This document shows, in pieces, positions 1-23,621 of a stretch of 28,480 nucleotides of DNA. The stretch is from the IMG/VR virus record IMGVR_UViG_3300035698_002192, positions 1 through 28,480 of that record, one strand, 5' to 3'. Within the stretch, counting starts at the first letter, position 1; each line of letters begins with the position of its first letter. The translations under genes were made by a program, and so were the position numbers. Source of the stretch: a virus. The notes below the pieces were generated by a model, which did not search any database, was not told where the DNA came from, and saw only the letters and a program-made list of their open reading frames with translations.

Positions 1-2642
1 ACCTCGCCAGTAACTTGATTAACTGTCTGCATATCCCAATTAGTTAAGTTATCACTATCAAATCTAATAGTTCCATTATTCTGAAAACCACCTGTATCAT
101 CTGACGGTATAAAAGCTGTCCAACCTGTATCCTCTAAAGAAAACGTAAATGTTGCTTTGATATTGGCGCTTGCCAATACAGTCATTAAAACATTTATCTG
201 GTCAAACTTTGTAGCAGACCCAATTAATACCTCGTCGTTATCACCGCCAAACATAATAACATTTGTGCCAGAAGAACCAAAAGCAGTTGTTACATCTGTA
301 TAAGTTGTTGCACTTGAATCGTAAGTAAACGCTGCGGCTATTGCTGCTGCTGTTCCTAAATGTTGATGAATAACCTCAACCCCTGAATTAGCCCCTACTG
401 CTACTGTTTCCATATCTGTGTTAGTAGGGTCAGACGCAGCTACATCAATACCATGAAGGTCTCCACCAGTAGCTCCTGCGTTATCAATAACCATATTAAT
501 ACCAGCACCACTTATCCCATCTACAAAGGCTGTAGCGTCATATTTAAGACCGTGCCCTGATACGCCACCAAATGTATGTGCATCAATATCTAAATCAATT
601 CCTGTATGTCCATTTACCCCTGCTATTACAACTGCGTGTACTGAATGGTCATTAAGTCCAGTTGGTGAGTATATTTTAAATGAAGCATCATCACTTGCTC
701 CTACTTGGGCGTGAATATCTCCATGGTCGCTTACATAAAAATTAGGTGCTGGATATACTACATAAACAAAAGCTGTTGCATCTGGTATTGCTGCCCCACC
801 TGTTGAACCAAAACTTACTGTAATGTGAGTTGTATCAGTTATTGATGTGATCTCTCCTGTTGCACCTGTAAAACTTACGCCAGTTGAGCTAATAACTTTA
901 ACAAATTGTCCTACATAAGAAGATACAAATGTTGCTTCTGGGTCATAGATAGTTTGTGTAGCTGCTGTTAATGTAGCATTAGTTTCACCTACATTTGTAT
1001 ATGTTGTTGCTAGAACATTATCAGCAATCTCTAGTCCTGCACCATACGCAACTGCCTCTGAATACAATCCTTCCATAGCCTTAATACCACTCGTTGCATA
1101 TATATCTCCTTCGCCTCTAAACCCTGCTGATGGAGACGCTGTACCTACTGATAATGCGTGTGAAGGTATGAATATGTCGTTTAAAAACCTATGTGCAGTA
1201 GTAGCACCATAATCCATATACCCATCATCCAAACTATCTATATATTCATTACCATCTGTTTGAGTAAATAACAATTTATCAGTAGCAAGTATCTCCCCGT
1301 CAACTTGTAAATATCCAGTCCCTACATCTTTTGGATTGATACGCAAATTTGTATTATCATAATAAATGCTCGCATCTTTACCTGACCCCATATACGTCAG
1401 TATATTATCTCCGCCAAGGAAATTATTCCCGATAGTTCCACCATTATACATAAGCCAGTCTTCATCAGAAGCTCTATCAATTGTATTATACATGGCGTAT
1501 TGTTTAGCAGTACCTCTGTCTACACCATATAATTGGTTATATATTCCATAATTAAGAGTTTGGACGTTTCCGTTTGTAATTGTCGGAACCATATAAGAAT
1601 AGTTGAATATCCCATAATTGGTCAGAGTAAATGCCCCACCGACTTTATCTACAGCACAAACATGACGTGTTCTATTATCTATTCCATAGTTGGTAATGTT
1701 ATATGCTGATTCTGTTAATGAATGGGTAGATTCAACATAATTATTTAATGCTATATTTTGTTCAAATATAGGTATATATGATGAATTTGCAGTATGATCA
1801 CCTGTCGCATATACTGAATTGTTTTGTCCGTATGTGTAAAGACTAGCTGAAAATGGCGAGCCTGATATAATATGTTCGTTATGTAGCGTGTTATTAAATC
1901 CATTAGATGTTAATGATGAGCTAGACGATGAACTTATTGTTTTTGTAAGATTGACTCCACTGTTTGTTGATGCCCCTGTATAAGTCTGCGTAATGTTAAA
2001 CAGGTCTACATCAGCCACACCAGCAGCATTAGTAAATACACCTGCCATTGTAATATCGTCAGTAGACGTTAGTTGTTCCCCCTGAACTATTCCGCTAAAA
2101 GTAGCATCAATCCCACCTGTTAAATCATATGCCCCCATAGGCCAATCTGCTGTTAATGGTATTGTTCCGTCTGCCTTTATATACCCTTCTGTTCCGTGGT
2201 CTCCCCAACCATAAGCAGTTTCAAAATTAGTTTCTTGAGTTTCTGTGATATGTTCATAATCTGTTCCAGCGTTAAGACCAGTTAAACTATTATGTGTGAA
2301 ATCACTTGAAACTTGGTCGCCAGAGTTGTTTCCTGATAGTGTCCCACTGTTAAATGTTCCACCAGATACATTTCCTGTTGTAGTAATAGAATCACCAGTA
2401 GTTGCAGTAGATATATCCGTACCTGCCCTAGACCAATATCCTAAATCACCTGTTGTTGGAGCAGTAGAAGTAAGAACCTTAGAGGTATCTGTATACACCC
2501 CTAGGCTAGCAGTTAATCCGCCAACTTCTATATCATTGCCAACTGTTAAATCAGTCTCAATTTCATGGTCGCCTAAAGTCTTTTGATTAGCAGAACATGG
2601 ATTGCATAACAATAATAAAAATATAATGATTATTCTAATAAT
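1..2642 (-). CDS. Large fibre/spike-like protein with signal sequence, 3'-partial, probable ATT start
   Basis: The reading frame is open from about 2642 to the window edge, about 880 codons, and continues outside. The sequence is rich in Gly, Thr, Ser, Asn and Asp, has few Lys or Cys, and contains the YGWGDHG motif (about residue 150) that I associate with phage tail-fibre proteins. A block with three NYGI-type repeats (about residues 318, 342 and 364) looks like a beta-solenoid. The N terminus is hydrophobic (IIIFLLLLCNPCSA, then NQ), a classical Sec signal. No ATG or GTG lies between the upstream in-frame stop and this segment. A GGAGG lies 6 nt before ATT at 2642-2640, so I infer an ATT start (the next ATT is also possible; a TTG further in would cut the signal). 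It overlaps the preceding gene by 13 nt. The fibre-like role is inferred from composition and context, and export of such a protein is odd. Confidence 0.75.
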   Translation of the reverse strand, partial: MIRIIIIFLLLLCNPCSANQKTLGDHEIETDLTVGNDIEVGGLTASLGVYTDTSKVLTSTAPTTGDLGYWSRAGTDISTATTGDSITTTGNVSGGTFNSGTLSGNNSGDQVSSDFTHNSLTGLNAGTDYEHITETQETNFETAYGWGDHGTEGYIKADGTIPLTADWPMGAYDLTGGIDATFSGIVQGEQLTSTDDITMAGVFTNAAGVADVDLFNITQTYTGASTNSGVNLTKTISSSSSSSLTSNGFNNTLHNEHIISGSPFSASLYTYGQNNSVYATGDHTANSSYIPIFEQNIALNNYVESTHSLTESAYNITNYGIDNRTRHVCAVDKVGGAFTLTNYGIFNYSYMVPTITNGNVQTLNYGIYNQLYGVDRGTAKQYAMYNTIDRASDEDWLMYNGGTIGNNFLGGDNILTYMGSGKDASIYYDNTNLRINPKDVGTGYLQVDGEILATDKLLFTQTDGNEYIDSLDDGYMDYGATTAHRFLNDIFIPSHALSVGTASPSAGFRGEGDIYATSGIKAMEGLYSEAVAYGAGLEIADNVLATTYTNVGETNATLTAATQTIYDPEATFVSSYVGQFVKVISSTGVSFTGATGEITSITDTTHITVSFGSTGGAAIPDATAFVYVVYPAPNFYVSDHGDIHAQVGASDDASFKIYSPTGLNDHSVHAVVIAGVNGHTGIDLDIDAHTFGGVSGHGLKYDATAFVDGISGAGINMVIDNAGATGGDLHGIDVAASDPTNTDMETVAVGANSGVEVIHQHLGTAAAIAAAFTYDSSATTYTDVTTAFGSSGTNVIMFGGDNDEVLIGSATKFDQINVLMTVLASANIKATFTFSLEDTGWTAFIPSDDTGGFQNNGTIRFDSDNLTNWDMQTVNQVTGE

Positions 2643-3070
2643 AGGTAACCTCCATCTTCGAGAAGTAGAAATGTTCCATCCTCGAGCAATAGTTTGTCAA
2701 ACACCGCTACATCAGGCCATTGAGATTGCAACGTATTGTTAACATACATTTTCCAAACGCTATCTTCATAAACCATACATCTGTCTGTTGTCGGGCAATC
2801 TGCCAATGTGTCATAAACACAATTTATTGCTCCAAGAGTACATAGTTCTGTTGCTAAATCTGAAAGACCTAAATCACAAACTGTTTTCCCTCCAACATCT
2901 GAACAAGTCATAACTCCGGTAAAATTCAAATAAGACCTAGGCCTCAAACTTGTTCCCTCTTCTTGTATGAGATGGGATCTAGCTGTAGATCCTCCGATTG
3001 TTGTTTCTGAGTCTGCAAAACAAACACTCGTACAAATAAAAAGAGACAATATGATTAATACCTTTTTCAT
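2630..3070 (-). CDS. Secreted protein with C-terminal LLLEDG repeats
   Basis: This 146-aa protein begins with a clear Sec signal peptide (MKKVLIILSLFICTSVCFA, cleavage before DSET). The mature part carries several Cys residues (TCSDVGG, VCDLG, LCTLGAINC, DCPTTDRC) that could form disulfides in the periplasm. A short segment VWKMYVNN follows, and the tail is an 8-residue repeat, LLLEDGTF / LLLEDGGY / LLLE. Such LLLEDG tails occur in phage structural proteins, but I cannot name the family. It overlaps the end of the upstream coiled-coil gene by 4 nt (ATGA), and its own tail overlaps the probable ATT start of the fibre-like gene. It is probably a small accessory protein of the fibre cluster. Confidence 0.75.
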   Translation of the reverse strand: MKKVLIILSLFICTSVCFADSETTIGGSTARSHLIQEEGTSLRPRSYLNFTGVMTCSDVGGKTVCDLGLSDLATELCTLGAINCVYDTLADCPTTDRCMVYEDSVWKMYVNNTLQSQWPDVAVFDKLLLEDGTFLLLEDGGYLLLE

Positions 3071-3954
3071 TTTACTAAACCCAATTCTTTTAGTTGCTTC
3101 TGTATTTTCTTTTCTTTCATAAGATGATCTAGTATTTTACTTACCTTAGCTTCTGCAATAGCAACTTTATTATGAGTAACTTTTAAATGTTTAGTTGCTG
3201 ACTCGTTTGCAGATTCATCTTGTTTAACTTTTAATTCTCTATTTTCAAGATTAAGTATTATTGCTTGCGACTTAACAATCAACCTATCTTTTTCTTTATC
3301 TTTAAAAGCTATTCCCCTAACCAATGAATCGTATTTTGTTTTTTCTTCTTTTGCTTGCGCTACAATTCCAACAGTATCTAAACGCAACTTGTCTATTTCT
3401 TCAGTAATGCCTTTTGCTTTTTCATGCTCAACAAAAACTTTTTCTTTTCCAATTGCTATTTCGTTAAGTTTCTCGTCGAGACTTCTAGTTTTCTTAGCAA
3501 TAGATAATTCTTCTTTTTCTACAATAGAGATTTTATTTAACAAATCAGTATTAATTCTATTTGTTGCTCGTAATCCATTCTTTGCCTTCTGATTATTTTC
3601 TTCTGTCTCTGCCTTTAACTTAGCTATTTCATCTTCTGAATTAGTAACAGCTATCTCTCTCTTTTCTGCATCTCCGACCAACTTTTCTATTTCTTTTTCT
3701 GTTGAATTTTTTACTGTTCGCAAAGCCCTTATGTCTCTTTTTAATTCAGTTCTGGTTAAACAATCTTTTTTAGATTCATCTAACGCTTCACTTTTTTGTT
3801 TCCTTATATCCTTTATCTCTTTAATGATTTTATTCTTTTCTCTTCCATCTTTTTCTACTTCTCTTTTCAACGCACCTGACTGTTTTCTAAGCTCACTCAC
3901 TTCAGTTTCTATATCTTGATGTATCTTGTCTAATTTCTGTGTTCTATCTATCAT
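3067..3954 (-). CDS. Long coiled-coil protein, function unknown
   Basis: The 295-aa protein is almost entirely Lys/Glu-rich heptad sequence from residue 3 to about 285, with no signal peptide, membrane segment or enzymatic motif, so it should form a long rod-like coiled coil. It sits between a small beta-rich protein and a secreted LLLEDG-repeat protein in the presumed virion/fibre block and shares an ATGA overlap with the latter. A structural spacer, tail-fibre chaperone or internal head protein are all possible. Coiled coils match many unrelated proteins by chance, so no family is assigned. Unlike several neighbours it would stay in the cytoplasm. Confidence 0.7.
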   Translation of the reverse strand: MIDRTQKLDKIHQDIETEVSELRKQSGALKREVEKDGREKNKIIKEIKDIRKQKSEALDESKKDCLTRTELKRDIRALRTVKNSTEKEIEKLVGDAEKREIAVTNSEDEIAKLKAETEENNQKAKNGLRATNRINTDLLNKISIVEKEELSIAKKTRSLDEKLNEIAIGKEKVFVEHEKAKGITEEIDKLRLDTVGIVAQAKEEKTKYDSLVRGIAFKDKEKDRLIVKSQAIILNLENRELKVKQDESANESATKHLKVTHNKVAIAEAKVSKILDHLMKEKKIQKQLKELGLVK

Positions 3955-3963
3955 TGTTTTACC

Positions 3964-4308
3964 TCACATTTCGCTAGTTTTAATACACGCATAAATAATA
4001 CCAGAGCCACCATCTTGAGTACACTCAACTTGAATTTTATCTCCGGCTTTTAAATTACATTGTCCTTGTGGCCTGAATATAAGATCAGTTTCTTCTACCA
4101 TAACAACATTAAGCAACTCAACATCATAATTAGACCCTTGATCAGATACCAATGTTATTGTTATTGTCTCTGATATAGATTCAGAAGCTTTAAAAGTGAC
4201 CATCTCAAGCTTACGTTCACGCCCTATAGATGTAGTGTAGTCTAAAGCAGCAGAAGATAAATCCTGAGAAGTTGTTATGTCTTTTGATAAAAAATGCGCT
4301 GTTTTCAT
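3964..4308 (-). CDS. Small beta-rich protein, probable virion component
   Basis: A 114-aa protein without a signal peptide. The central part alternates hydrophobic and polar residues (ETITITLVSDQGSNYDVELLNVV, cut here to the recognisable stretch), followed by LKAGDKIQVECTQDGGSG, a pattern typical of small beta-sandwich phage proteins. It starts inside the last codons of the preceding secreted protein (4-nt overlap at 4305-4308) and lies 9 nt before the coiled-coil gene, so it belongs to the same co-transcribed block. The exact role, such as decoration, neck or fibre attachment, is not shown by the sequence. Confidence 0.65.
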   Translation of the reverse strand: MKTAHFLSKDITTSQDLSSAALDYTTSIGRERKLEMVTFKASESISETITITLVSDQGSNYDVELLNVVMVEETDLIFRPQGQCNLKAGDKIQVECTQDGGSGIIYACIKTSEM

Positions 4309-4748
4309 TTTACTGTCTTTATAGTTAATACTGTAGTCTTAGGATTACTGTTTTGCCCTGTTATCTTGAACCTACCATACATTAAATCTACTGTATCTAT
4401 AGTAGCTAAATGCCAACTTCCGTCAGTCAAAGATGTATTTATATCTTCAGTTATCATATAAGTAACATCTGATGCCCCTTCAGTAGCAGGCTTTTGTACT
4501 GACTGTTGAAAATAAATAGCAGTGTCTCCTGTTGCCGGACTCATTAAATAAGCAACTCCTATATCCAACTCAGTATTTGCACTCTTGATAGGAAAGGATC
4601 TTGTATAAATAGTATCTGTCTCAGACACCGCTAAAGATACTGACCTAGATGAAGTTTCTACTGTCTCTACAACCTTTGAATGATTAGCTGCAGATACAGG
4701 ACAAACCATAATTGCTAACACCATACCGATTAATAATAACTTTTTCAT
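4305..4748 (-). CDS. Secreted beta-rich protein, function unknown
   Basis: I place the start at the ATG at 4748, which overlaps the stop of the O-antigen polymerase-like gene as ATGA and follows a GGAGGGG Shine-Dalgarno sequence. The frame is open further upstream, but that extension lies inside the neighbouring gene and has no support. The 147-aa product starts with a Sec signal (MKKLLLIGMVLAIMVCPVSA, then ANHS). The mature domain is beta-rich with many Thr/Ser (SVSLAVSETDTIY, ATGDTAIYFQQSV), resembling small phage structural domains rather than enzymes. Translational coupling to the membrane protein suggests they act together at the cell envelope. The function is unknown. Confidence 0.7.
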   Translation of the reverse strand: MKKLLLIGMVLAIMVCPVSAANHSKVVETVETSSRSVSLAVSETDTIYTRSFPIKSANTELDIGVAYLMSPATGDTAIYFQQSVQKPATEGASDVTYMITEDINTSLTDGSWHLATIDTVDLMYGRFKITGQNSNPKTTVLTIKTVK

Positions 4749-5947
4749 TTTTCCCCTCCGATTAATGATTGATTGCTTAATATTCCGAATAACATGATTG
4801 CTAAATATTGATAAACCCCTAGTTGAAATATGAATGATCCGCATGATACGAGGTGCAAAAGGATAAATGCACACGCATATACGATTATTTGCTGTTCGTC
4901 GTTCCTGTACCCCTTGTAGGCTTGTTTTAGGCACTCTAGGACTGCTAGAACATACAGTATCAACCCTATTATCCCTAATGTATACAATATCTCTAACGGA
5001 TCGCTATGCGCCTGTCTAAACTTCCCTCCATGCTTTAACCAAAATAAATATCCATAGCTTCCTAACCCCACTCCTGTAAATGCCGGTGCAACATATTCTT
5101 TATCTTTTAATGGTGATGTTCTTAAATCTTCAACAATATCCTCATATACTGCCTTTCTACCGTTCAATTCTTGAACAGTAAACCCTTTTGCCACAAACAC
5201 CCCTGTAATAAGCGTAAATGCTAAAACTATATACAGCGTTCTTGGTCTAATTAATACTAAATAAACCAAACTTGCTATAAAAGTTCCGCCTATTGCCATC
5301 TTTGAATTTAATATTAATAGAAATATTGCCATGAATACGGCAGGAATGTACTTCTTTAAGCTTAATGCAGTAATTATACCTAATCCTATAAGCGGAGAGA
5401 CTAAAGTGGGTTGGCCTAAGCTACCTATCATGTGAGGAGTTGTTACACCACCTATAACCGAAAGAGCTTTTACTTTATAGAACTGATCAAATCCCATCCA
5501 TTGAAAGAAAATATAGAACGTCATTAGCAATGCAACGTAATATATTGAGGAAATAATCTGTTTATGGCAAATTTTTGTTAAATCTATGCTTTTTACACCT
5601 ATAAACATGAGAAAGTAACATAAAATATATGCAAATGGTTTCCACACCCAAAAAGATGAGGAATTTAATCCGTTTACATTGAGAGGAACATTCGTAGCTC
5701 TGTTTGTACTAACAAGAATAAATACTAGAAAAACTAACAACCACTTGTTAGATATTCTTACATTAACCCCTTGATAGAGAGCAACCAAGCCAATACATAC
5801 CGCCAATAATAGCGATAGCGATAGCTTAGCTACTCTCGTATCTGGTGTTAAAACTACTGCATCAGGGAACAATCTTATGATAATTTCATAAAAGGGAAGT
5901 AAAACTATTCCTATCAGCAAAATGATTTTTTTGTAATCATATCGCAT
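4745..5947 (-). CDS. O-antigen polymerase/ligase-like membrane protein (Wzy_C type)
   Basis: This 400-aa protein is strongly hydrophobic with roughly ten or more membrane segments. It has a large extracytoplasmic loop at about residues 265-315 that contains GRKAVYEDIVEDL and GVGLGSYGYLFWL, followed by HSDPLEILYTLGIIGLILY. The G-x-G-x-G and H-(S/N)-x-x-L-x-x-L-x-x-x-G-x-x-G pattern is the signature of the Wzy/WaaL O-antigen polymerase-ligase family (PF04932). Members act at the periplasmic face of the inner membrane on undecaprenyl-linked glycans. Here the gene sits inside the phage structural operon, 5 nt after one signal-peptide gene and overlapping the next by ATGA. I infer alteration of host surface polysaccharide, for example to block superinfection. 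The substrate is unknown. Confidence 0.75.
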   Translation of the reverse strand: MRYDYKKIILLIGIVLLPFYEIIIRLFPDAVVLTPDTRVAKLSLSLLLAVCIGLVALYQGVNVRISNKWLLVFLVFILVSTNRATNVPLNVNGLNSSSFWVWKPFAYILCYFLMFIGVKSIDLTKICHKQIISSIYYVALLMTFYIFFQWMGFDQFYKVKALSVIGGVTTPHMIGSLGQPTLVSPLIGLGIITALSLKKYIPAVFMAIFLLILNSKMAIGGTFIASLVYLVLIRPRTLYIVLAFTLITGVFVAKGFTVQELNGRKAVYEDIVEDLRTSPLKDKEYVAPAFTGVGLGSYGYLFWLKHGGKFRQAHSDPLEILYTLGIIGLILYVLAVLECLKQAYKGYRNDEQQIIVYACAFILLHLVSCGSFIFQLGVYQYLAIMLFGILSNQSLIGGEK

Positions 5948-5952
5948 TGAAA

Positions 5953-6471
5953 TTAACCCTTTTTAATTAACATCCGCCCAAGTTCCGATTCTATTACTGC
6001 AATACCATTTTTGTTGATGCTCCTACTATGGGTAACTGTGTCACTTGTAACTTGTGTTGCATTTGATCCTAAACGATCTCCTGCTGCAAACGTCGTTACT
6101 ACCGCACTAGAAACACATCCATCAAACGTATCTGTGCTTTGTGGTGTAAGATATACTGCTGCTTCTGAACCTTTACCACCAACTATAACAAAAGTATACT
6201 CTAATCCTGCTTTTGCTGTAGGTAATGTCTCAATTACAGTTGTTGATACTGGATTTATAAGAAATACCTTACCACTCTCTACTGCTGTAACTGTATCGCT
6301 TGATGTAATCACTTCTGCTGTCTTTTTTAAACCAAGAACCTTGCCTAAACTATCAATTAAAACTTCTTGGCCGTCACTTGCAGTTACAGAAAATAAATCC
6401 GTAGCTGCGTTTGCCCCACTAACCATAAAAACAATCAATAGAGCAACTAAAATGGAAGTTCTTTTAAACAT
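5953..6471 (-). CDS. Secreted beta-rich protein downstream of the capsid gene
   Basis: The 172-aa product has a good Sec signal peptide (MFKRTSILVALLIVFMVSGANA, then ATDLF). The mature part begins with a short motif (SVTASDGQEVLIDSLGKVLG). A beta-rich domain follows, with TVTAVESGKVFLINPV, IETLPTAKAGLEYTFVIVGG and YLTPQSTDTFDG. This pattern of a barrier-like beta domain with LP...AGLxYTFV is common in small phage structural proteins. An AAGGAGAT Shine-Dalgarno lies before the ATG. It is the first gene after the major capsid gene and is followed within 5 nt by the O-antigen polymerase-like gene. The combination of virion-like sequence and export signal is unusual. The true location, periplasm or particle, is not settled. 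Confidence 0.7.
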   Translation of the reverse strand: MFKRTSILVALLIVFMVSGANAATDLFSVTASDGQEVLIDSLGKVLGLKKTAEVITSSDTVTAVESGKVFLINPVSTTVIETLPTAKAGLEYTFVIVGGKGSEAAVYLTPQSTDTFDGCVSSAVVTTFAAGDRLGSNATQVTSDTVTHSRSINKNGIAVIESELGRMLIKKG

Positions 6472-6522: not shown

Positions 6523-7461
6523 TTAAGCTCCGGTACTTGCAAAACCACCACGCCAGTTATCATTACCTACGTCATATCTTGCTCTACCCTTGAAGTTATA
6601 AGCTTCAATGTTGTAGTCTACCCAAGATACGAAATGAGGTTTTTGACGCCATACAAACTTGAAGTAACCTAACCCTGGTAACATAATATACCATGCTGTA
6701 TCACTTCCGCCATTAGCTGCGTCCAACCATACATCTTCGATAGCTCGATAAGTAAACATACCTTTTCGAGTTGTGAACTGGTTGATGTTTCTCTGAGTTG
6801 TATCTGGTTGCTCAACTGCTCTTTCACTTAAAACTCTTGCTACTTTACCTCTCAACGCTGGTGGATAAAGCAATACTGGATCTTCTGTGATAGGAATTGG
6901 TAATGCTTTCATATCATAAAGATTATCCGTCATTGATGTTTCCGCCAACTCAAGGTTGTCATGCGAAAAAGCTCCACTTAAAAGATTGCTATAAATGTTG
7001 CCTGTGACTTCTCTGTTCTGAGGATGCGCAGAACTAAACGTATACTGACCATCCGGGCCAGCTACACTAAACCCTAAATAAAGGTGTTGTGCTTGGTCAT
7101 ACGCTATTCTAGCTCTTCCACCTCTACCCATTTGCTCTGAAGAACTTACTTTACTCAACAACGCATATTCGTCATCGTCAGATGCTTCAAACGATACTTG
7201 GAACTGCTTTGTGATTTTACCGATTGTGTACGTCTTTTCATAACCAAGAACAGGATCTTCAATGTTTCCACCAACCATCTCGTCTTGATCTTCCCACATA
7301 CCTAACGAACTCAAATCATCTACTTGATAATCTTTTTGAGTCGTGTCTACATCTTTAAACGCTGCTGAACATCCTTCTGGATAATCACCAAACGCACCCA
7401 ACAAAAACTCGTCATATACAGACGAATATAACTCCGCTACACTCTCTCTTATTGTTGACAT
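6523..7461 (-). CDS. Major capsid protein
   Basis: The 312-aa protein starts MSTIRESVAELYSSVYDEFL and follows a near-perfect AAGGAGGAG ribosome site. It has no signal peptide. The region YTIGKITKQFQVSFEASDDD, then SEQMGRGGRARIAYDQAQHLY and the C-terminal KFVWRQKPHFVSWVDYN ... GRARYDVGNDNWRGGF, match the organisation of HK97-fold major capsid proteins of the Mu gpT/P22-like type, with an N-terminal segment, an A-domain and a C-terminal strand ending in aromatic-rich turns. Position supports the call: portal, scaffold-like protein and a decoration-like protein lie directly upstream. No N-terminal delta domain is evident, consistent with a separate scaffold protein. Confidence in the role is high; the subfamily is uncertain. 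Confidence 0.85.
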   Translation of the reverse strand: MSTIRESVAELYSSVYDEFLLGAFGDYPEGCSAAFKDVDTTQKDYQVDDLSSLGMWEDQDEMVGGNIEDPVLGYEKTYTIGKITKQFQVSFEASDDDEYALLSKVSSSEQMGRGGRARIAYDQAQHLYLGFSVAGPDGQYTFSSAHPQNREVTGNIYSNLLSGAFSHDNLELAETSMTDNLYDMKALPIPITEDPVLLYPPALRGKVARVLSERAVEQPDTTQRNINQFTTRKGMFTYRAIEDVWLDAANGGSDTAWYIMLPGLGYFKFVWRQKPHFVSWVDYNIEAYNFKGRARYDVGNDNWRGGFASTGA

Positions 7462-10495: not shown

Positions 10496-11083
10496 TTAAT
10501 TAATTTTCTCAATATCATATTTTGTTTGATTTCCTTTACCCCTGACCTTTATTCGCAATAAATCACCTTCTGAATAAATTGACATTTGCTTAGCAAATTC
10601 CCGAGCCGACCTATCCCATAGCATCACCCTTCCTTTTACCTCAAAAGAATATCGAATACTTTTAACTAAGTTGCCTTGATAATTTGTTGTAACAGGCTCA
10701 GCCTCAACAAATCTAACAACTGCCTCTTGCCCATCTTTCAAATCTAAAAACTTAGATTTTGATTCAACTTCAAATGGAATAAACCAAATATTATTCTCTT
10801 CTATATCAACTATTGCAAGAAAATCATATTCACCTTTTTTGTATCTATATCTTTTTCCATTCATATTGCGAGCTACCTCAACCATATGAACTTTCTTTTT
10901 TCTATTCATTGTCCAATACGATTTCTTAACTTGAACCTTTAATAATTTTCCATCTAAAGATTCTACTACATAATCGTATTTACATGAGTTTGAAAAAGGT
11001 ATAGAAATATTATAGCCAGAATCTATTGTTGACTTTAAAAAAAGTGCTTCGGCTTTATCTCCATTTTTTATTCTATTACTCAT
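10496..11083 (-). CDS. PD-(D/E)XK homing-type endonuclease with extra C-terminal domain
   Basis: Residues 1-105 of this 195-aa protein follow the PDDEXK_5/I-Ssp6803I group: G-x-x-x-E near residue 12, KYDYVVE with the metal-binding Asp at about 37, KVQVKKSYW with the Q-V-K catalytic triplet at about 51-53, then YDFLAIVDIEENNIWFIPFE. These enzymes are typically homing endonucleases. The C-terminal 75 residues (VVRFVEAEPVTTNYQGNLV ... YSEGDLLRIKVRGKG) are beta-rich and resemble an OB-fold nucleic-acid-binding domain, which I do not know as a usual partner. The gene separates two parts of the head cluster, as expected for a free-standing homing endonuclease. No intron is evident next to it. Confidence 0.7.
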   Translation of the reverse strand: MSNRIKNGDKAEALFLKSTIDSGYNISIPFSNSCKYDYVVESLDGKLLKVQVKKSYWTMNRKKKVHMVEVARNMNGKRYRYKKGEYDFLAIVDIEENNIWFIPFEVESKSKFLDLKDGQEAVVRFVEAEPVTTNYQGNLVKSIRYSFEVKGRVMLWDRSAREFAKQMSIYSEGDLLRIKVRGKGNQTKYDIEKIN

Positions 11084-11133: not shown

Positions 11134-11496
11134 TTAGTCTGCAAAATTTAAAAACGTGCCACTATATGTAAGCTTTACATACGCAAAATACCCTTTATCA
11201 TCTTCTGTTGCATATCCGCTATCCATGAATGGATCGTTATACAAGTCTTTCCCGCCTTCGAATCCTAGAGTTAAGTTCTTCGTAAACCTAACTAAATCAG
11301 GAGCATCTACCTTTGCACCTACTGTAAGCCTTGCTTGATCCGGAAGTTCATGCGTATGATACACATATTCATTCGTGTTAAGCAAATTACTCAAATAAGG
11401 GCTTGGAGTTGTATAAAGTCCTCTGTCTGTCTGTTCAGCCATAGCTGGCATTGCCATCAAGGCTAATACACACAACGCTAACAATACTCTTCTCAT
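11134..11496 (-). CDS. Secreted protein with outer-membrane-like strands
   Basis: This 120-aa protein has a strong Sec signal peptide (MRRVLLALCVLALMAMPAMA, then EQTDRG). The mature part contains alternating strand-like segments, ARLTVGAKVDAPDL, NLTLGFEGGKDLY and GYFAYVKLTYSGTFLNF, which resemble a few strands of an outer-membrane barrel or a small periplasmic beta protein. It is only about 100 residues long after cleavage, too short for a full porin. It sits between a tiny basic protein and the endonuclease in the head cluster, where exported proteins are not expected. The function is unknown. Confidence 0.65.
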   Translation of the reverse strand: MRRVLLALCVLALMAMPAMAEQTDRGLYTTPSPYLSNLLNTNEYVYHTHELPDQARLTVGAKVDAPDLVRFTKNLTLGFEGGKDLYNDPFMDSGYATEDDKGYFAYVKLTYSGTFLNFAD

Positions 11497-14257: not shown

Positions 14258-16783
14258 TTAGTACGCCTTTCTGTTATTAGGTTTAAACTTCTGCTTGACT
14301 ATGTACCTAGGGTTTGACATACATAAATAACGTGTCAAATCACTAAAATCTTTGTACGCTTCCTTCGGCTTGACCTGATCCTTCACATCACCATCTGAAG
14401 TCATTATATCTTTCCGGCTATACCTTGACAAATGCCTTATGTGATTAGTACAGTTATCACAAAAGTATATCTTCGGCTGTACGATTATCTCTCCATCCTT
14501 CTCTTCCCAATGCAGATACTCTCTGACCTTTAAATGCCCTGCCTCCACCGCATCAATACCATCATTGTAGATTAACCCTCTCTTTTTAAGCTCCTCTACT
14601 GGCGTTGTCTTACTCTGTCCACCTTGTCTTTGAGCTAATTGTACTGTCTTGTTACCAAAGTTAGGGTCTATTATCCGCTTGATGAACTTGTTGTTCACCT
14701 CATTCATCAGGATTGACTCTTTCGTTTTGATATACTTAGCATAGTCATCATACGTCTTATCATCATAAAGCATCTCGTTAAAGTTTCTTTCAGCCGGATA
14801 TTCTTCAACACAACATACTGACCCAGTTGGATGTACTGCATACCAACCAATAGCCCAAGGCTTCCGGTCATGCGGATCTAACACATGCCATATCTGACAA
14901 GCTGATAAATCCATGTCCTCTCTGCTGATAACATGAACGTCTTTACTGAATGAAGGGTATATCTTGCCTTGAAGGTTGATAGGTATGCCATAGAAACGAC
15001 TCTTGATCTCTTGCTTAGTCATTAACTTGGCTTCTTCCATCATACGATTATAGTTTATGTATGGATTATCGGCCGTCCAAAGGAAGTATATCTTAACGCC
15101 ATCCTTCTCAGCTATTGTAGGCAACACCTCATCAACTAGCGGAGCATACCTTGACTTAATGACCGTATGACCCTCAAAAACGTCCTCTATAAGCTCTGTA
15201 ACGCCCTTTAATGATGTCATTGATAGTAACAGCTCACCATCTCTATCAAGCAGCCTCATCTTAATCTCTTGCCATATATCTAGGTCAGGCTCTTCATCAC
15301 ACCATGCAAGGTCAATAGCATCACCCTGGAAGCCTACTCGCTTCTGATCGTATGACTTGAACATAGCTAACGTGCCATTATTTAACAAGAGCTTCCTGTT
15401 TGTATAACCGTTGATCTCATCATAACTGCCATACTTGATATAAGCTTTAGGCATGAGCCTATCCATCTTGGCCTGTTGGATATTGACTGACTCACTAAAC
15501 GTCAAAGCACAACACCATATCCTGCCCTTATCCATCTCAAGCATCTTATTATCTACATAAGCACTAACAGCTTCCGTCTTGCCTGAATTAAATGTTACAA
15601 TGCCATTAGCTAAAACAAACGTGTGCGAAGGGTGAGATACCGTTAAACATCTGCATTTCTTATTACCAGTAGGAACAACTCTTTTTATCAATAAATCGCT
15701 CCTGCTAACAGCTCTAACCATCTTGGTAGTAGGTGTTTTATGTAGCAAGCCAGTAATTCCTAATTGTTTTATATAGCCTATTGAAAACTGTAACTTAAAA
15801 CTATCGCCTTGGTTTGGATTGCTTGCCTTAGAGTCCAAATAAATACGACCATTGCACCCAAGAGAAACCATTATATCTTTTAAATCCTTTAGCAATCTGA
15901 TAGAACTTGACCATATAACAATCTTTCTGTTATCACACCCACCATCTGTAAGTATCATACCCTTTAAAATATCTTTTCTGGTTTTCTCACTTGAAACCTT
16001 GAACATATCAGGTATGAACTTATTTCTAGCCTTCTTAGTTAGCCCTAGTGACTTCAAGTCATTTATAAATAAATTCTCATTCTTTTTACCTCTCTCTAGT
16101 CTCATATAATATCTAGTCAGATCACTTGGCCTTGGCTCACACTTTAGATCAGGATAGCTTTTACAAAATTCTTCTTTAAATATTTTCTGTATTTCTTTGT
16201 TACTATTAGTAAAATTAGGTCTAGCATATCCATGACTAGGAGAGTTACCATAGCTGCCATCCCCTAAGAATAGACCTAAAAATAGCCCAGAGAAAGGAAG
16301 AGCCGGAGCATCTTTGTATCTCTGTATCCCAGAACACACAAACTTTTTTGATCTATATTTCTTATTAGAAATTTCATCAACTGTAAACTTCTTAATATGT
16401 TTCTTGCCATTGCTTATATATTGTATCGGGAAACAATGGTTTCCGCTTGCTTCAACCTCTGAGCCAGATGCGGTGATAACTTTGTATGTATCGCTATAAT
16501 CATCATAAGGTATGCCTATTACATCTGTAGGGGTAGATTCTTTGCCATCCCAAGACAAGATGCAATCTCCAATGACTATGTCCTCAATAGCTTTAGTTGT
16601 GCCATTAGCCATGCGTAACATTGTGCCATAAGCCAACTCTCTGTTCCCACCAAAAATTATTTTGATTTTAGCTGGATCATCTGCGAATAGTTGTTGTTGC
16701 GGTAGGTATTGATGCAGTAAAAGTATATCGTTCTTGGCTCTGTGCCTGATTTCCTCTGCTAATCTTAAATCTTCTTCTGTCAT
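14258..16783 (-). CDS. terL: Terminase large subunit containing an intein
   Basis: The 841-aa precursor is an ATPase/nuclease that packages DNA into proheads. The N-extein (residues 1-48) ends in IIFGGNR and the C-extein (from residue 400) begins SGKTEAVSAY, so removal of the 351-residue insert restores the Walker A motif GGNRSGKT. Walker B is in DLAWCDEEPDLDIWQ. The C-terminal nuclease part contains WHVLDPHDRKPWAIGWY and IIDPNFGNKT, as in RNase H-like terminase nucleases. The mature length would be about 490 aa, normal for the family. The gene starts directly after the terS stop. Without splicing the ATPase site would be broken, so splicing should be essential. Confidence 0.92.
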   Translation of the reverse strand: MTEEDLRLAEEIRHRAKNDILLLHQYLPQQQLFADDPAKIKIIFGGNRELAYGTMLRMANGTTKAIEDIVIGDCILSWDGKESTPTDVIGIPYDDYSDTYKVITASGSEVEASGNHCFPIQYISNGKKHIKKFTVDEISNKKYRSKKFVCSGIQRYKDAPALPFSGLFLGLFLGDGSYGNSPSHGYARPNFTNSNKEIQKIFKEEFCKSYPDLKCEPRPSDLTRYYMRLERGKKNENLFINDLKSLGLTKKARNKFIPDMFKVSSEKTRKDILKGMILTDGGCDNRKIVIWSSSIRLLKDLKDIMVSLGCNGRIYLDSKASNPNQGDSFKLQFSIGYIKQLGITGLLHKTPTTKMVRAVSRSDLLIKRVVPTGNKKCRCLTVSHPSHTFVLANGIVTFNSGKTEAVSAYVDNKMLEMDKGRIWCCALTFSESVNIQQAKMDRLMPKAYIKYGSYDEINGYTNRKLLLNNGTLAMFKSYDQKRVGFQGDAIDLAWCDEEPDLDIWQEIKMRLLDRDGELLLSMTSLKGVTELIEDVFEGHTVIKSRYAPLVDEVLPTIAEKDGVKIYFLWTADNPYINYNRMMEEAKLMTKQEIKSRFYGIPINLQGKIYPSFSKDVHVISREDMDLSACQIWHVLDPHDRKPWAIGWYAVHPTGSVCCVEEYPAERNFNEMLYDDKTYDDYAKYIKTKESILMNEVNNKFIKRIIDPNFGNKTVQLAQRQGGQSKTTPVEELKKRGLIYNDGIDAVEAGHLKVREYLHWEEKDGEIIVQPKIYFCDNCTNHIRHLSRYSRKDIMTSDGDVKDQVKPKEAYKDFSDLTRYLCMSNPRYIVKQKFKPNNRKAY
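15587..16639 (-). mobile_element. Intein with LAGLIDADG homing endonuclease in terL
   Basis: The insert covers terL residues 49-399. Block A is ELAYGTMLRMANGTTKAIED with IVIGD, block B is GSEVEASGNHCFPI, and the splice end is SHTFVLANGIVTFN before Ser+1. The two LAGLIDADG helices are GLFLGLFLGDGSYG (about 166-179, Asp175) and KDILKGMILTDGG (about 270-282, Asp280), so the homing enzyme looks intact. The first residue is Glu instead of Cys/Ser. A Cys (379) occupies the block F position usually Asp, and a Thr (397) precedes Phe-Asn at the end. That pattern resembles class 3 inteins, which use the block F Cys as nucleophile. Confidence 0.88.
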
Positions 16784-17341
16784 TTAGTTCCAGCTTCGTT
16801 TTTTCATCATCTCTTTTATGCCACGCCTATCTGTATCAGCATACTCTGGATGTAAATTGTCGTTTTTAACATTCACATCTACTTGGTCTGTAAATAGCTT
16901 TTGATGCTTGCCTAACAACTCAGCACATCCTTTAACATCAATTATTTTGTATTCAAGCAACTCCCCTGCGCTATCATATTTAACACCAATAACTGCTTTT
17001 GCAGTATCATCATCAAGTTCATGTGGTTGTTTTAAAATAATATTCCCAGTTCCAGCTTCATCTTCCTTGTAAAGCTTCCTCACATCAAACTCTTGCCCTT
17101 GCATAAGTCTTTTAAGTGTTTTTGCCATTGTTACCTCAAGTCTTTTAAGCACAGGAGCTTGTAACTCTTTTATTCTTGACACTATCTTGACATCATCCAT
17201 CATGCACTTAGCTTTCCTATGAACGCTTGCTGGTTTCCATTTCAAAGAAGCAGGATATGCTAATCTGTATGCGTCAGAAGAATTATTAGCTAAGATATAT
17301 TCCTGGCAAAACTTCTCTTGTTTAACTGTAAGCAATTGCAT
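16784..17341 (-). CDS. terS: Terminase small subunit
   Basis: The 185-aa protein recognises phage DNA and recruits TerL. The N-terminal LTVKQEKFCQEYILANNSSD and AYRLAYPASLKWKPASVHRK form the helix-turn-helix typical of the Terminase_2 family (PF03592), which is followed by ARMMxDVKIVxRIxEL-like helices (here KCMMDDVKIVSRIKEL) and a C-terminal oligomerisation/TerL-binding part. The stop abuts the terL start. The first 20 nt overlap the end of the GIY-YIG gene, suggesting insertion of that gene at the terS start. Confidence 0.85.
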   Translation of the reverse strand: MQLLTVKQEKFCQEYILANNSSDAYRLAYPASLKWKPASVHRKAKCMMDDVKIVSRIKELQAPVLKRLEVTMAKTLKRLMQGQEFDVRKLYKEDEAGTGNIILKQPHELDDDTAKAVIGVKYDSAGELLEYKIIDVKGCAELLGKHQKLFTDQVDVNVKNDNLHPEYADTDRRGIKEMMKKRSWN

Positions 17342-17840
17342 GAATTTCCTCTGGTTTTGTTGCTAATTGTTCTAAAGCATTTTTAAACTCATTATAAAAC
17401 TTTATATAATCTCCAAAACATCTAGTTGCTGTGGCTGTAGACACTATGTCACATTCCCACGCATCCAAGGGTATCAAATGATCTAACATCCATTTAGCTT
17501 TTACCTGAGACTTTTCTTGGCTTGAAACAACACCTGGGCTAATATTTGTTATCCCACACTTCTTATATCTACAAATCATTTGCCTTTCAATCAAAAGCGC
17601 ATCTACTTCTGGCAGGTTGTTTTTATATATAATTTCTGTTACATTTAGCCCTTCGCTAAGAATATTATTAATCCTCGCCACTTTATCTGCGTTGTCTACT
17701 CTCCCCTTTTTAGCGTTACACACATGATTCTTTAAGCGATTGCCTTTGCCTTTTCCCACATAAAAAACTGATTGATCTCTAGGGTCTATCAAGAAATATA
17801 CATAGAACTTCTTTTGTTTAGGAGTGAGCTTTTTCTTCAT
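17322..17840 (-). CDS. GIY-YIG endonuclease overlapping terS
   Basis: The 172-aa protein contains the GIY-YIG nuclease core: FYVYFLIDPRD (GIY equivalent, residues 12-22), FYVGKGKGNRLKNH (YIG equivalent with the catalytic Arg, 26-39) and a conserved Glu in ALLIERQMICRYKK, followed by NISPGVVS. The C-terminal part (residues 115-172) is a divergent tail that may bind DNA. The first residues, LTPKQKKF, look like the start of a terminase small subunit, and the last codons overlap the real terS start by 20 nt. Probably a free-standing homing endonuclease inserted at terS. Confidence 0.8.
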   Translation of the reverse strand: MKKKLTPKQKKFYVYFLIDPRDQSVFYVGKGKGNRLKNHVCNAKKGRVDNADKVARINNILSEGLNVTEIIYKNNLPEVDALLIERQMICRYKKCGITNISPGVVSSQEKSQVKAKWMLDHLIPLDAWECDIVSTATATRCFGDYIKFYNEFKNALEQLATKPEEIHAIAYS

Positions 17841-18647: not shown

Positions 18648-18956
18648 TCATTTTACAATAGATTTTACAGCTAAAACATCTATGAACTGAATAGAATAAT
18701 ATGCTTCACCGTCGAGCTTAAAATCGTGAGACCTTGAAGGCTTAGTAATAAAAACAATATCGTTGGTCTCGCATGGCGGATTGATTTTTTTACCTTTGTA
18801 GCCTGTGTAAACTTCGCCAACTGAAACAGCTCTACATTTTAAGTATCTCATTCCATGATGATCAGTGTTGTAAATAATTCCGGCTTCAGTAGATTTTTCT
18901 TCTGACAATACTTTAACAACTATTTTTCCTGCTGCTGATTTAATCTTCCTGTTCAT
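18648..18956 (-). CDS. GroES-like co-chaperonin (second of a tandem pair)
   Basis: The 102-aa protein has the GroES layout: KIVVKVLSEEKSTEAGIIYN at the N terminus (the mobile loop follows), YLKCRAVSVGEVYTGYKG, then NDIVFITKPSRSHDFKLDGE and SIQFIDVLAVKSIV. GroES caps the GroEL chamber during protein folding; phage versions such as T4 gp31 help fold the capsid protein. The loop TDHHGMRY is longer than in the usual family. It starts inside the last codons of the first GroES-like gene. The two copies are clearly different in sequence, so they may form a hetero-oligomer or have different jobs. Confidence 0.75.
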   Translation of the reverse strand: MNRKIKSAAGKIVVKVLSEEKSTEAGIIYNTDHHGMRYLKCRAVSVGEVYTGYKGKKINPPCETNDIVFITKPSRSHDFKLDGEAYYSIQFIDVLAVKSIVK

Positions 18957-19216
18957 TCTTCCACCTTTGCTAGTAGATAATCCGGTCTAAGTACGATTAA
19001 TTTCTCATCATCAATACAAATCTCTCTTCCTTCGTGGCGTTCAAATAATACCCTATCTCCTACTTTAATGTTCAGCTTATTGTCTTTGCCTAAACTTCTT
19101 ACTATCCCATAGAACTTACCATGATATGATTGGGCTGATTCTGGTATGAATATAGTGTTTATAGCTGTTTCGTGGATCATCTTGACCATCACGTTGTCAT
19201 AGGTTGTTTCAACCAT
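18953..19216 (-). CDS. GroES-like co-chaperonin (first of a tandem pair)
   Basis: I choose the ATG at 19216, 6 nt after AGGAGG; an ATG at 19231 overlaps that site and is unlikely. The 87-aa product contains YDNVMVKMIHETAINTIFIP, then GKFYGIVRSLGKDNKLNIKV with GDRVLFERHEGREICIDDEK and LRPDYLLAKVEE, matching the GroES core G-x-V-x-x-x-G, V-G-D-x-V-L-F, G-x-E and D-x-L-x-x-V. The mobile loop is SAQSYHGK, short but present. The gene overlaps the zinc-ribbon gene upstream by 8 nt and the second GroES-like gene by 4 nt, so all three are co-translated. Confidence 0.78.
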   Translation of the reverse strand: MVETTYDNVMVKMIHETAINTIFIPESAQSYHGKFYGIVRSLGKDNKLNIKVGDRVLFERHEGREICIDDEKLIVLRPDYLLAKVEE

Positions 19217-19472
19217 CTTTTGCCTCCTCAACTCTTGTTATTATTTTTTTAACACACCTCAAACCACACTTACATACCCATTTTCTATGTGCGTTATGTT
19301 CACCATATCTCCATTCATCAATAAGAGTTGTTGCTTTGCATACTGGACATTCACCAGTTTGAACATCTGCATAACTATCCATCTTTCCCCTCCTGTCTCT
19401 GTTTTCCTCAAGGTATCTTGAGTTTTCCGGTAGGATCTTATCTAATATCCACCAAAGTATTTTGTCTATCAT
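19209..19472 (-). CDS. Zinc-ribbon protein before the GroES pair
   Basis: The start at 19472 overlaps the preceding stop as ATGA (87 aa); a longer TTG start is unlikely. Its N-terminal part is hydrophobic (MIDKILWWILDKILPE), and the C-terminal half is a zinc ribbon with CPVCKATTL and WVCKCGLRC. A short amphipathic helix followed by a zinc ribbon suggests a small nucleic-acid- or protein-binding factor. No function can be given. Confidence 0.6.
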   Translation of the reverse strand: MIDKILWWILDKILPENSRYLEENRDRRGKMDSYADVQTGECPVCKATTLIDEWRYGEHNAHRKWVCKCGLRCVKKIITRVEEAKDG

Positions 19473-23370: not shown

Positions 23371-23517
23371 TTATTTTTTTCCACATTTAAAAACTATATC
23401 GCCCATTGAACAAAGACCCATTTCGGCAACAACGTATGATGGTATGCCATCAAATTTTATAGGAACAGTAGCGCACCCACCCAGCATCAAGCATAGAATT
23501 AAAAAGTAGTGTTTCAT
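23371..23517 (-). CDS. Small lipoprotein
   Basis: I choose the ATG at 23517 after AGAGGTG; the longer frame upstream lies inside the neighbouring gene. The 48-aa product is a lipoprotein (MKHYFLILCLMLGGCATVPI, lipobox LGGC, Cys15, Ala+2 suggesting outer-membrane sorting). The short mature part contains two more Cys (GLCSMGD, VFKCGKK). It lies 2 nt after a 33-aa membrane protein. Lipoprotein plus small membrane protein recalls spanin pairs, but the partner is too small. Other options are exclusion or envelope proteins. Confidence 0.65.
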   Translation of the reverse strand: MKHYFLILCLMLGGCATVPIKFDGIPSYVVAEMGLCSMGDIVFKCGKK

Positions 23518-23519
23518 TT

Positions 23520-23621
23520 TCACACCTCTATCATTAGTACACGAATTAAACTTGCCACCAAAATCCCGATGATAACACCTAGACAAAAGAAAAGGGCATG
23601 ATCTTCTGTTAGTTTTTTCAT
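23520..23621 (-). CDS. Tiny single-pass membrane protein
   Basis: The 33-aa ORF (MKKLTEDHALFFCLGVIIGI, then LVASLIRVLMIEV) starts after AAGGGGAG. It is almost entirely one membrane helix. It ends 2 nt before the lipoprotein start. Role unknown. Confidence 0.5.
   Translation of the reverse strand: MKKLTEDHALFFCLGVIIGILVASLIRVLMIEV

Follow-up and report, generated by a model that had tools for sequence, protein, structure and literature searches.

Why would a tailed phage place export signals on proteins encoded directly behind its capsid gene? To our knowledge, tailed-phage assembly is held to be wholly cytoplasmic. The question is raised by a 28,480-base IMG/VR record, IMGVR_UViG_3300035698_002192 (the whole of which is called the window here; nearly all of its genes, and all the window features given below, lie on the minus strand), in which a block of genes following the capsid gene codes for proteins with apparent Sec signals. 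A preliminary description of this DNA had offered two readings, in which the phage either builds a surface structure on its host or assembles part of its particle at or outside the membrane. Our analysis favours the second over the first. The block is probably the start of the outer-tail module of a podovirus-like clade of tailed phages.

The window carries the hallmarks of tailed phages (Caudoviricetes), namely a large terminase, a portal and an HK97-type capsid protein. Its head genes comprise the small terminase, the large terminase with an intein-like insert (phrog_2 match, 6.7e-13), the portal, which was recognised by 26% similarity to an annotated head-to-tail connecting protein, the scaffold, the cement protein and the capsid protein. 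The 312-residue major capsid protein (6523..7461; PF25209 3e-8, phrog_371 2.8e-8) is the last gene of the head cluster and has no signal, nor has any of the 24 members of its family. The block lies directly behind this gene, as had been described.

The four Sec-signalled products reported for the block were borne out, since their starts at 6471, 4748, 3070 and 2642 were read in the sequence and all passed a rule-based signal test; a fifth exported protein, placed at 11496-11134 inside the head cluster, passed the same test. The predicted signals, with the cleavage site marked by a caret, are MFKRTSILVALLIVFMVSGANA^ATDLF (start 6471), MKKLLLIGMVLAIMVCPVSA^ANHSK (4748), MKKVLIILSLFICTSVCFA^DSETT (3070), MIRIIIIFLLLLCNPCSA^NQKTL (2642) and MRRVLLALCVLALMAMPAMA^EQTDR (11496). 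In all five N-termini a short n-region with positive charge is followed by a hydrophobic stretch free of charged residues, and small residues occupy -3/-1. We regard the predicted signal of the fibre, starting at 2642, as likely and those of the other four proteins as near certain. The fibre (3..2642; signal 1-18), which runs off the contig after at least 880 residues, is signalled as described, with the correction that its start codon is ATT and not a usual start. GGAGG lies 6 nt before this ATT. Near 2642 the fibre frame holds no ATG or GTG, and the sole alternative, TTG at 2612, is without a Shine-Dalgarno sequence and would delete the signal.

The first gene after the capsid gene codes for an exported 172-residue protein (5953..6471; signal 1-22) with a small, weakly fibre-like beta domain. 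By rule, 10/12 members of its family are signalled, and synteny is conserved. Its AlphaFold2 (AF2) model had a predicted local distance difference test (pLDDT) value of 60, and Foldseek with this model gave no significant match. After a membrane-protein gene that is discussed below comes an exported 147-residue protein (4305..4748; signal 1-20), whose start overlaps the stop of that gene; all four members of its family are signalled, and its mature part matches phrog_28213 (1.1e-8). No match was obtained when annotated phage records were searched with the capsid, 172-residue and 147-residue proteins. The block is not composed of exported proteins throughout: the description holds for the four signalled products but not for a conserved 114-residue protein (3964..4308) and a charged, coiled-coil-like protein of 295 residues (3067..3954), neither of which is signalled. 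Their unsignalled state is conserved among relatives, with signals in none of 16 members of the 114-residue family, the position of which is also conserved, and with an unsignalled protein of 282-293 residues in the coiled-coil slot of most relatives. The exported Cys-rich 146-residue protein (2630..3070; signal 1-19) carries a SETTIGG module that forms the N-terminus of a large exported fibre in relatives, and it matches the N-terminus of their signalled fibres of 685-1067 residues (6/6 signalled). A frameshift fusion of this protein to the window fibre was considered but seems improbable, given that the fibre frame is equipped with a signal and a ribosome-binding site of its own.

The same pattern was found in related viruses, for which 26 loci came from a portal search and 34 from a capsid search; many of their sample numbers are, we presume, those of Ace Lake, Antarctica. 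Signals were counted by the rule-based test in 25 representative contigs. Outer-tail families were signalled in 49/55 copies, as compared to 1/159 copies of the head, adaptor and internal-protein families; Fisher values for outer versus inner families ignore sequence kinship and show effect size only. The six outer-family misses include signals recognisable by eye, with K, N, Q or R in the hydrophobic stretch, as well as over-extended starts. By region, signals were present in 86/191 of the genes among the 16 that follow the capsid gene, in 2/190 head genes and in 17/219 other genes. Shuffled outer N-termini passed the test at 2.6% and shuffled inner ones at 0.3% (overall 0.3-4%), and internal Met sites passed once in 1179.

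The usual gene order is capsid protein, exported protein, polytopic Wzy_C or other membrane protein, exported protein, unsignalled 114-residue protein, unsignalled coiled-coil protein and exported fibres. Four long contigs (G002, G007, G008 and G009) continue with an unsignalled adaptor-like protein (phrog_399 2.3e-5 in relatives), a signalled nozzle-like protein, a signalled Mtd-like protein and unsignalled internal proteins. Across the clade the terminase, portal, scaffold, capsid, adaptor-like and internal ejection proteins and the lysozyme are unsignalled, and the nozzle-like, Mtd-like, fibre and spike proteins, together with the small proteins around them, are signalled. In these data, the boundary of the predicted signals follows the border that separates the outer tail from the plugged, DNA-containing head, and the predicted Sec export of the outer-tail set is well supported. 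A search for internal starts that would yield a cytoplasmic form gave no conserved candidate, and none whatever in several nozzle genes.

The nozzle-like protein of the long contigs, about 776-795 residues in length and signalled, allowed the position of the signal to be compared with the protein's ordinary N-terminus. An alignment search gave 304 relatives, from which 79 loci were kept and 62 inspected, one of them unreadable. Of the relatives that share 33% identity or more and whose match begins close to the N-terminus, 36/37 bear a signal immediately before the DFSGGLNTK-like motif with which a nozzle usually starts. More distant relatives are signalled in 0/24 cases, and several of them begin right at a DFSGGLNTK-like motif. 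The possibility had been raised that homologues would lack the signals and start downstream; within the clade the signal is kept, and only the distant nozzle relatives lack it. Since these begin at the ordinary N-terminus, a wrongly called start does not account for the signal, which has been added in front of the nozzle sequence. In the neighbourhood of eight nozzles without signals, only 1/137 genes is signalled, whereas most signalled nozzles have several signalled neighbours; from this distribution, the outer-tail proteins seem to have switched to Sec export together. The family is predicted to be nozzle-like from profiles, which carry the names head closure Hc3 (some members), internal virion protein (more members), tail appendage and tail protein; a match to the PDB profile 'nozzle gp16' was weak (E 0.12), and another phage chain matched at 0.0087. 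No second, signal-less nozzle was present in the four long contigs of the family, each of which has a single nozzle-like gene.

Other exported proteins of the clade also resemble parts of a virion. A 990-residue protein combines a beta-helix with an S74 endosialidase chaperone, an arrangement typical of tail spikes and fibres, and a 313-residue protein gives a match to domain 2 of the receptor-binding protein Mtd. Residues 486-869 of the window fibre match the 1096-residue fibre of a conventional phage with 64% identity over 277 residues and 59% over 101. In the contig of that phage, which is free of signals, a nozzle is strongly matched by Hc3 (2e-90); the distal domain of the fibre therefore does not require export for its function and belongs to an ordinary fibre. 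The exported proteins thus look like virion parts and would presumably be present in the particle. It is because the exported set comprises the only nozzle-like protein, the Mtd-like protein, the S74 spike and the fibre domain of a conventional phage that we favour assembly of a particle part at or outside the membrane.

We propose that Sec would export the outer-tail precursors, as their signals suggest, and that after cleavage of the signals the mature proteins would reach their folded, oligomeric state on the far side of the inner membrane. The cytoplasm would be the site at which heads are built and filled with DNA, complete with portal, adaptor and ejection proteins, as the unsignalled head proteins and known phages suggest. 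Head and outer tail would then come together once lysis breaches the inner membrane, or shortly earlier at the membrane itself. That the outer-tail proteins are Sec precursors, and that the two halves are made apart and joined late, seems to us reasonably probable. The fuller picture of a clade of tailed double-stranded DNA (dsDNA) phages with two-compartment assembly, in which cytoplasmic packaged heads are joined at lysis to a Sec-exported and possibly glycosylated outer tail, has in our judgement slightly better than an even chance of being correct. A two-membrane host is an assumption, since spanin-like neighbours gave weak matches only. When the genomes of the GTDB set were searched for a host with profiles of the portal and the nozzle, no match was obtained. 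The 'Q rule' of Bacteroidetes was tried as a host clue and set aside, with no host deduced from it, since it is the nozzles alone that often have Gln at +1. Possible selective reasons for export are the keeping of sticky fibres from the cytoplasm, glycosylation and delayed maturation. Disulfide bonding was rejected as a reason, as cysteine is not enriched (0.82% vs 0.74%) and its counts are uneven.

The membrane protein of the block (4745..5947) has 400 residues and about 8-11 membrane segments. It had been described as polysaccharide polymerase-like; it does have a Wzy_C domain, but the profiles point as much to a ligase or an O-oligosaccharyltransferase. On its own the window protein falls below the Pfam cut-off, and 11/11 aligned family members match PF04932. 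The model of the O-oligosaccharyltransferase TfpM matches 1/11 members (1.3e-5) and not the window protein, the PEP_O_lig_1 ligase model matches two members, and the closest solved structure to the family is 7tpg, a cell-surface polysaccharide polymerase/ligase (6e-6). R264 and H314 are invariant in the family. The gene mostly accompanies a short form of the first exported gene, and contigs with the 561-783-residue form lack Wzy_C. Three contigs have another polytopic protein in the Wzy_C slot; polytopic proteins without a family match occur in this slot in L066 (8332-9285), L070 (9722-10774, minus strand) and L026 (9730-10743). The enzyme might, on the periplasmic face, attach a glycan to the exported tail proteins or alter the host surface glycan; that it acts on either is a weaker inference than export itself, and glycosylation of the exported tail proteins is a reasonable idea, not a finding.

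If glycosylation were the main purpose of export, the Wzy_C protein would be a TfpM/TfpO-like oligosaccharyltransferase modifying its exported neighbours in the periplasm. The TfpM and PEP_O_lig_1 matches and the association of Wzy_C with the short form of the first exported gene are in keeping with this, and according to a review the PglL_A domain is absent from TfpO/TfpM enzymes, which often adjoin their substrates (PMC12645811). However, the weak profiles fail to separate ligase, polymerase and transferase, and the last residue of the 172-residue protein is neither Ser nor Thr, as a TfpM-type site would require. Moreover, several members (for example G002, L016 and L018) have exported tails and no Wzy_C in the slot, so that glycosylation is not the general reason for export; we consider this explanation quite unlikely. 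The presence of the Wzy_C enzyme in the block could also fit exported proteins that are not virion parts at all, and that instead stay on the surface of the infected host, or leave it, to serve in exclusion, adhesion or the masking of receptors. Phage proteins that are exported and modify the envelope are known, T4 Spackle being one (PMC7650644). Such a role sits poorly with an exported set that holds the sole nozzle-like protein of the four long contigs, the Mtd-like protein, the beta-helix/S74 spike and a conventional fibre domain, because a particle cannot do without nozzle and fibre, of which no further copies turned up in these contigs. We therefore hold host display to be unlikely.

Equally unlikely, in our view, is that the N-termini are uncleaved signal anchors, by which the outer tail would be tethered to the inner membrane and assembled there, perhaps from the cytoplasmic side. 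Hydrophobic N-termini would suit a tether, and no parts would have to be joined across a membrane. Yet small residues stand at -3/-1 at the expected distance, the ordinary nozzle N-terminus resumes right after the predicted site, and a cytoplasm-facing tether would need reversed topology for large soluble domains. That the signals are an artefact of miscalled starts or chance hydrophobic N-termini is hardly credible: the ATT start of the fibre, the automatic gene calls and the home-made signal rule leave some room for it, but the signals are conserved in many relatives, mostly behind ATG starts, the controls are low and distant relatives begin where the mature protein begins. Several points nevertheless weigh against a Sec-exported outer tail. 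The signal test was a home-made one and not SignalP, and many contigs are near-copies, so the independent counts are smaller than those given. The nozzle gene lies outside the window, whose contig ends inside the fibre; nozzle identity comes from profile matches that are often labelled 'internal virion protein', with a weak PDB match, and the AF2 model of the nozzle, made from a 6-row alignment, had a pLDDT of 33. A DNA-filled head would have to reach an exported tail on the other side of a membrane, in a joining step that we infer, and the support is drawn from sequence.

The fifth exported protein of the window (11134..11496; 120 residues, signal 1-20) has a homologue, 69% identical, in only one close relative, L003, among the relatives compared, and therefore seems to be a separate accessory; a periplasmic exclusion role of the Spackle/Cor type is possible for this protein alone. 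A 50-residue open reading frame (ORF; 23371-23523) with a GTG start and a lipobox (MKMKHYFLILCLMLGGCA) may encode a lipoprotein of the lysis or exclusion type. The large terminase gene (14258-16783) is interrupted by an intein-like insert with Hint (4.2e-7) and LAGLIDADG (2.1e-7) matches; in the relative L002/L004 the terminase ORF is longer, at 953-1083 residues, and has an HNH-like ORF on it. Two homing-type extras were also seen, a PD-(D/E)XK endonuclease-like gene between portal and scaffold (10496-11083; PF11645 9.5e-15) and, directly upstream of the small terminase, a GIY-YIG gene (17322-17840; PF22945 3.8e-13). Two adjacent GroES-like (Cpn10) genes are present at 18648-18956 and 18953-19231 (PF00166 8.6e-9 and 2.4e-11), and L032 has a similar ORF pair by eye (284-544 and 591-911).

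The clade resembles short-tailed (P22/T7-type) Caudoviricetes in its gene content and order after portal and capsid, and in its nozzle-family profiles and Mtd, beta-helix and S74 domains; a short-tailed type with adaptor and nozzle is suggested by phrog_399 and Hc3 matches in relatives, the window ending before this region. Conventional short-tailed phages and the distant relatives compared (L033, L074, L155 and L129-L153) have no nozzle signal and almost none on the tail, whereas the outer tail of the clade is signalled throughout: the parts are alike and their predicted destination differs. The coat proteins of filamentous phages (Inoviridae) are virion proteins that carry signals and depend on Sec/YidC before assembly. 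They share with the proteins described here the presence of signals on virion proteins, but their particle is an extruded single-stranded DNA filament without packaged capsid, terminase or tail, unlike a tailed dsDNA phage with signals on its outer tail. T4 Spackle (gp61.3), a 97-residue inhibitor of the tail lysozyme with a cleaved signal and periplasmic action (PMC7650644), is likewise a signalled phage protein concerned with the tail, but it is a single inhibitor and not a tail component. In contrast to exclusion proteins of the Spackle/Cor type, the block lies in a structural module, which in relatives holds the nozzle, fibre and spike families. The membrane protein shares with TfpM/TfpO O-oligosaccharyltransferases and WaaL ligases a Wzy_C domain, a polytopic form, conserved periplasmic His/Arg and a gene beside an exported protein; it differs in lying in a phage tail operon with no pilin, in its weak sequence similarity and in an activity that is predicted only. 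In Porphyromonas gingivalis phages several genes with host-type signals are reported as capsid proteins, spanins and unexplained genes, and the part of that report available to us describes no exported nozzle or outer-tail set (PMC10367356). In the podovirus MW202554, whose nozzle is unsignalled, the tail-collar protein and a ConA-like lectin begin with signal-like sequences (L073 13521-14546 and 1430-2221); partial export may therefore exist elsewhere. Literature searches, made largely outside subscription journals, gave no report of exported outer tails in a tailed phage.

For annotation, exported tail proteins of this kind are readily mistaken in metagenomes for proteins secreted by the host. 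If the proposed export is true, it would break the rule of wholly cytoplasmic assembly and would require head and tail to be joined at or near lysis. The tail would be open to periplasmic folding factors, proteases and glycosylation, and the arrangement would point to a means by which phages hold adhesive fibres apart from the cytoplasm.

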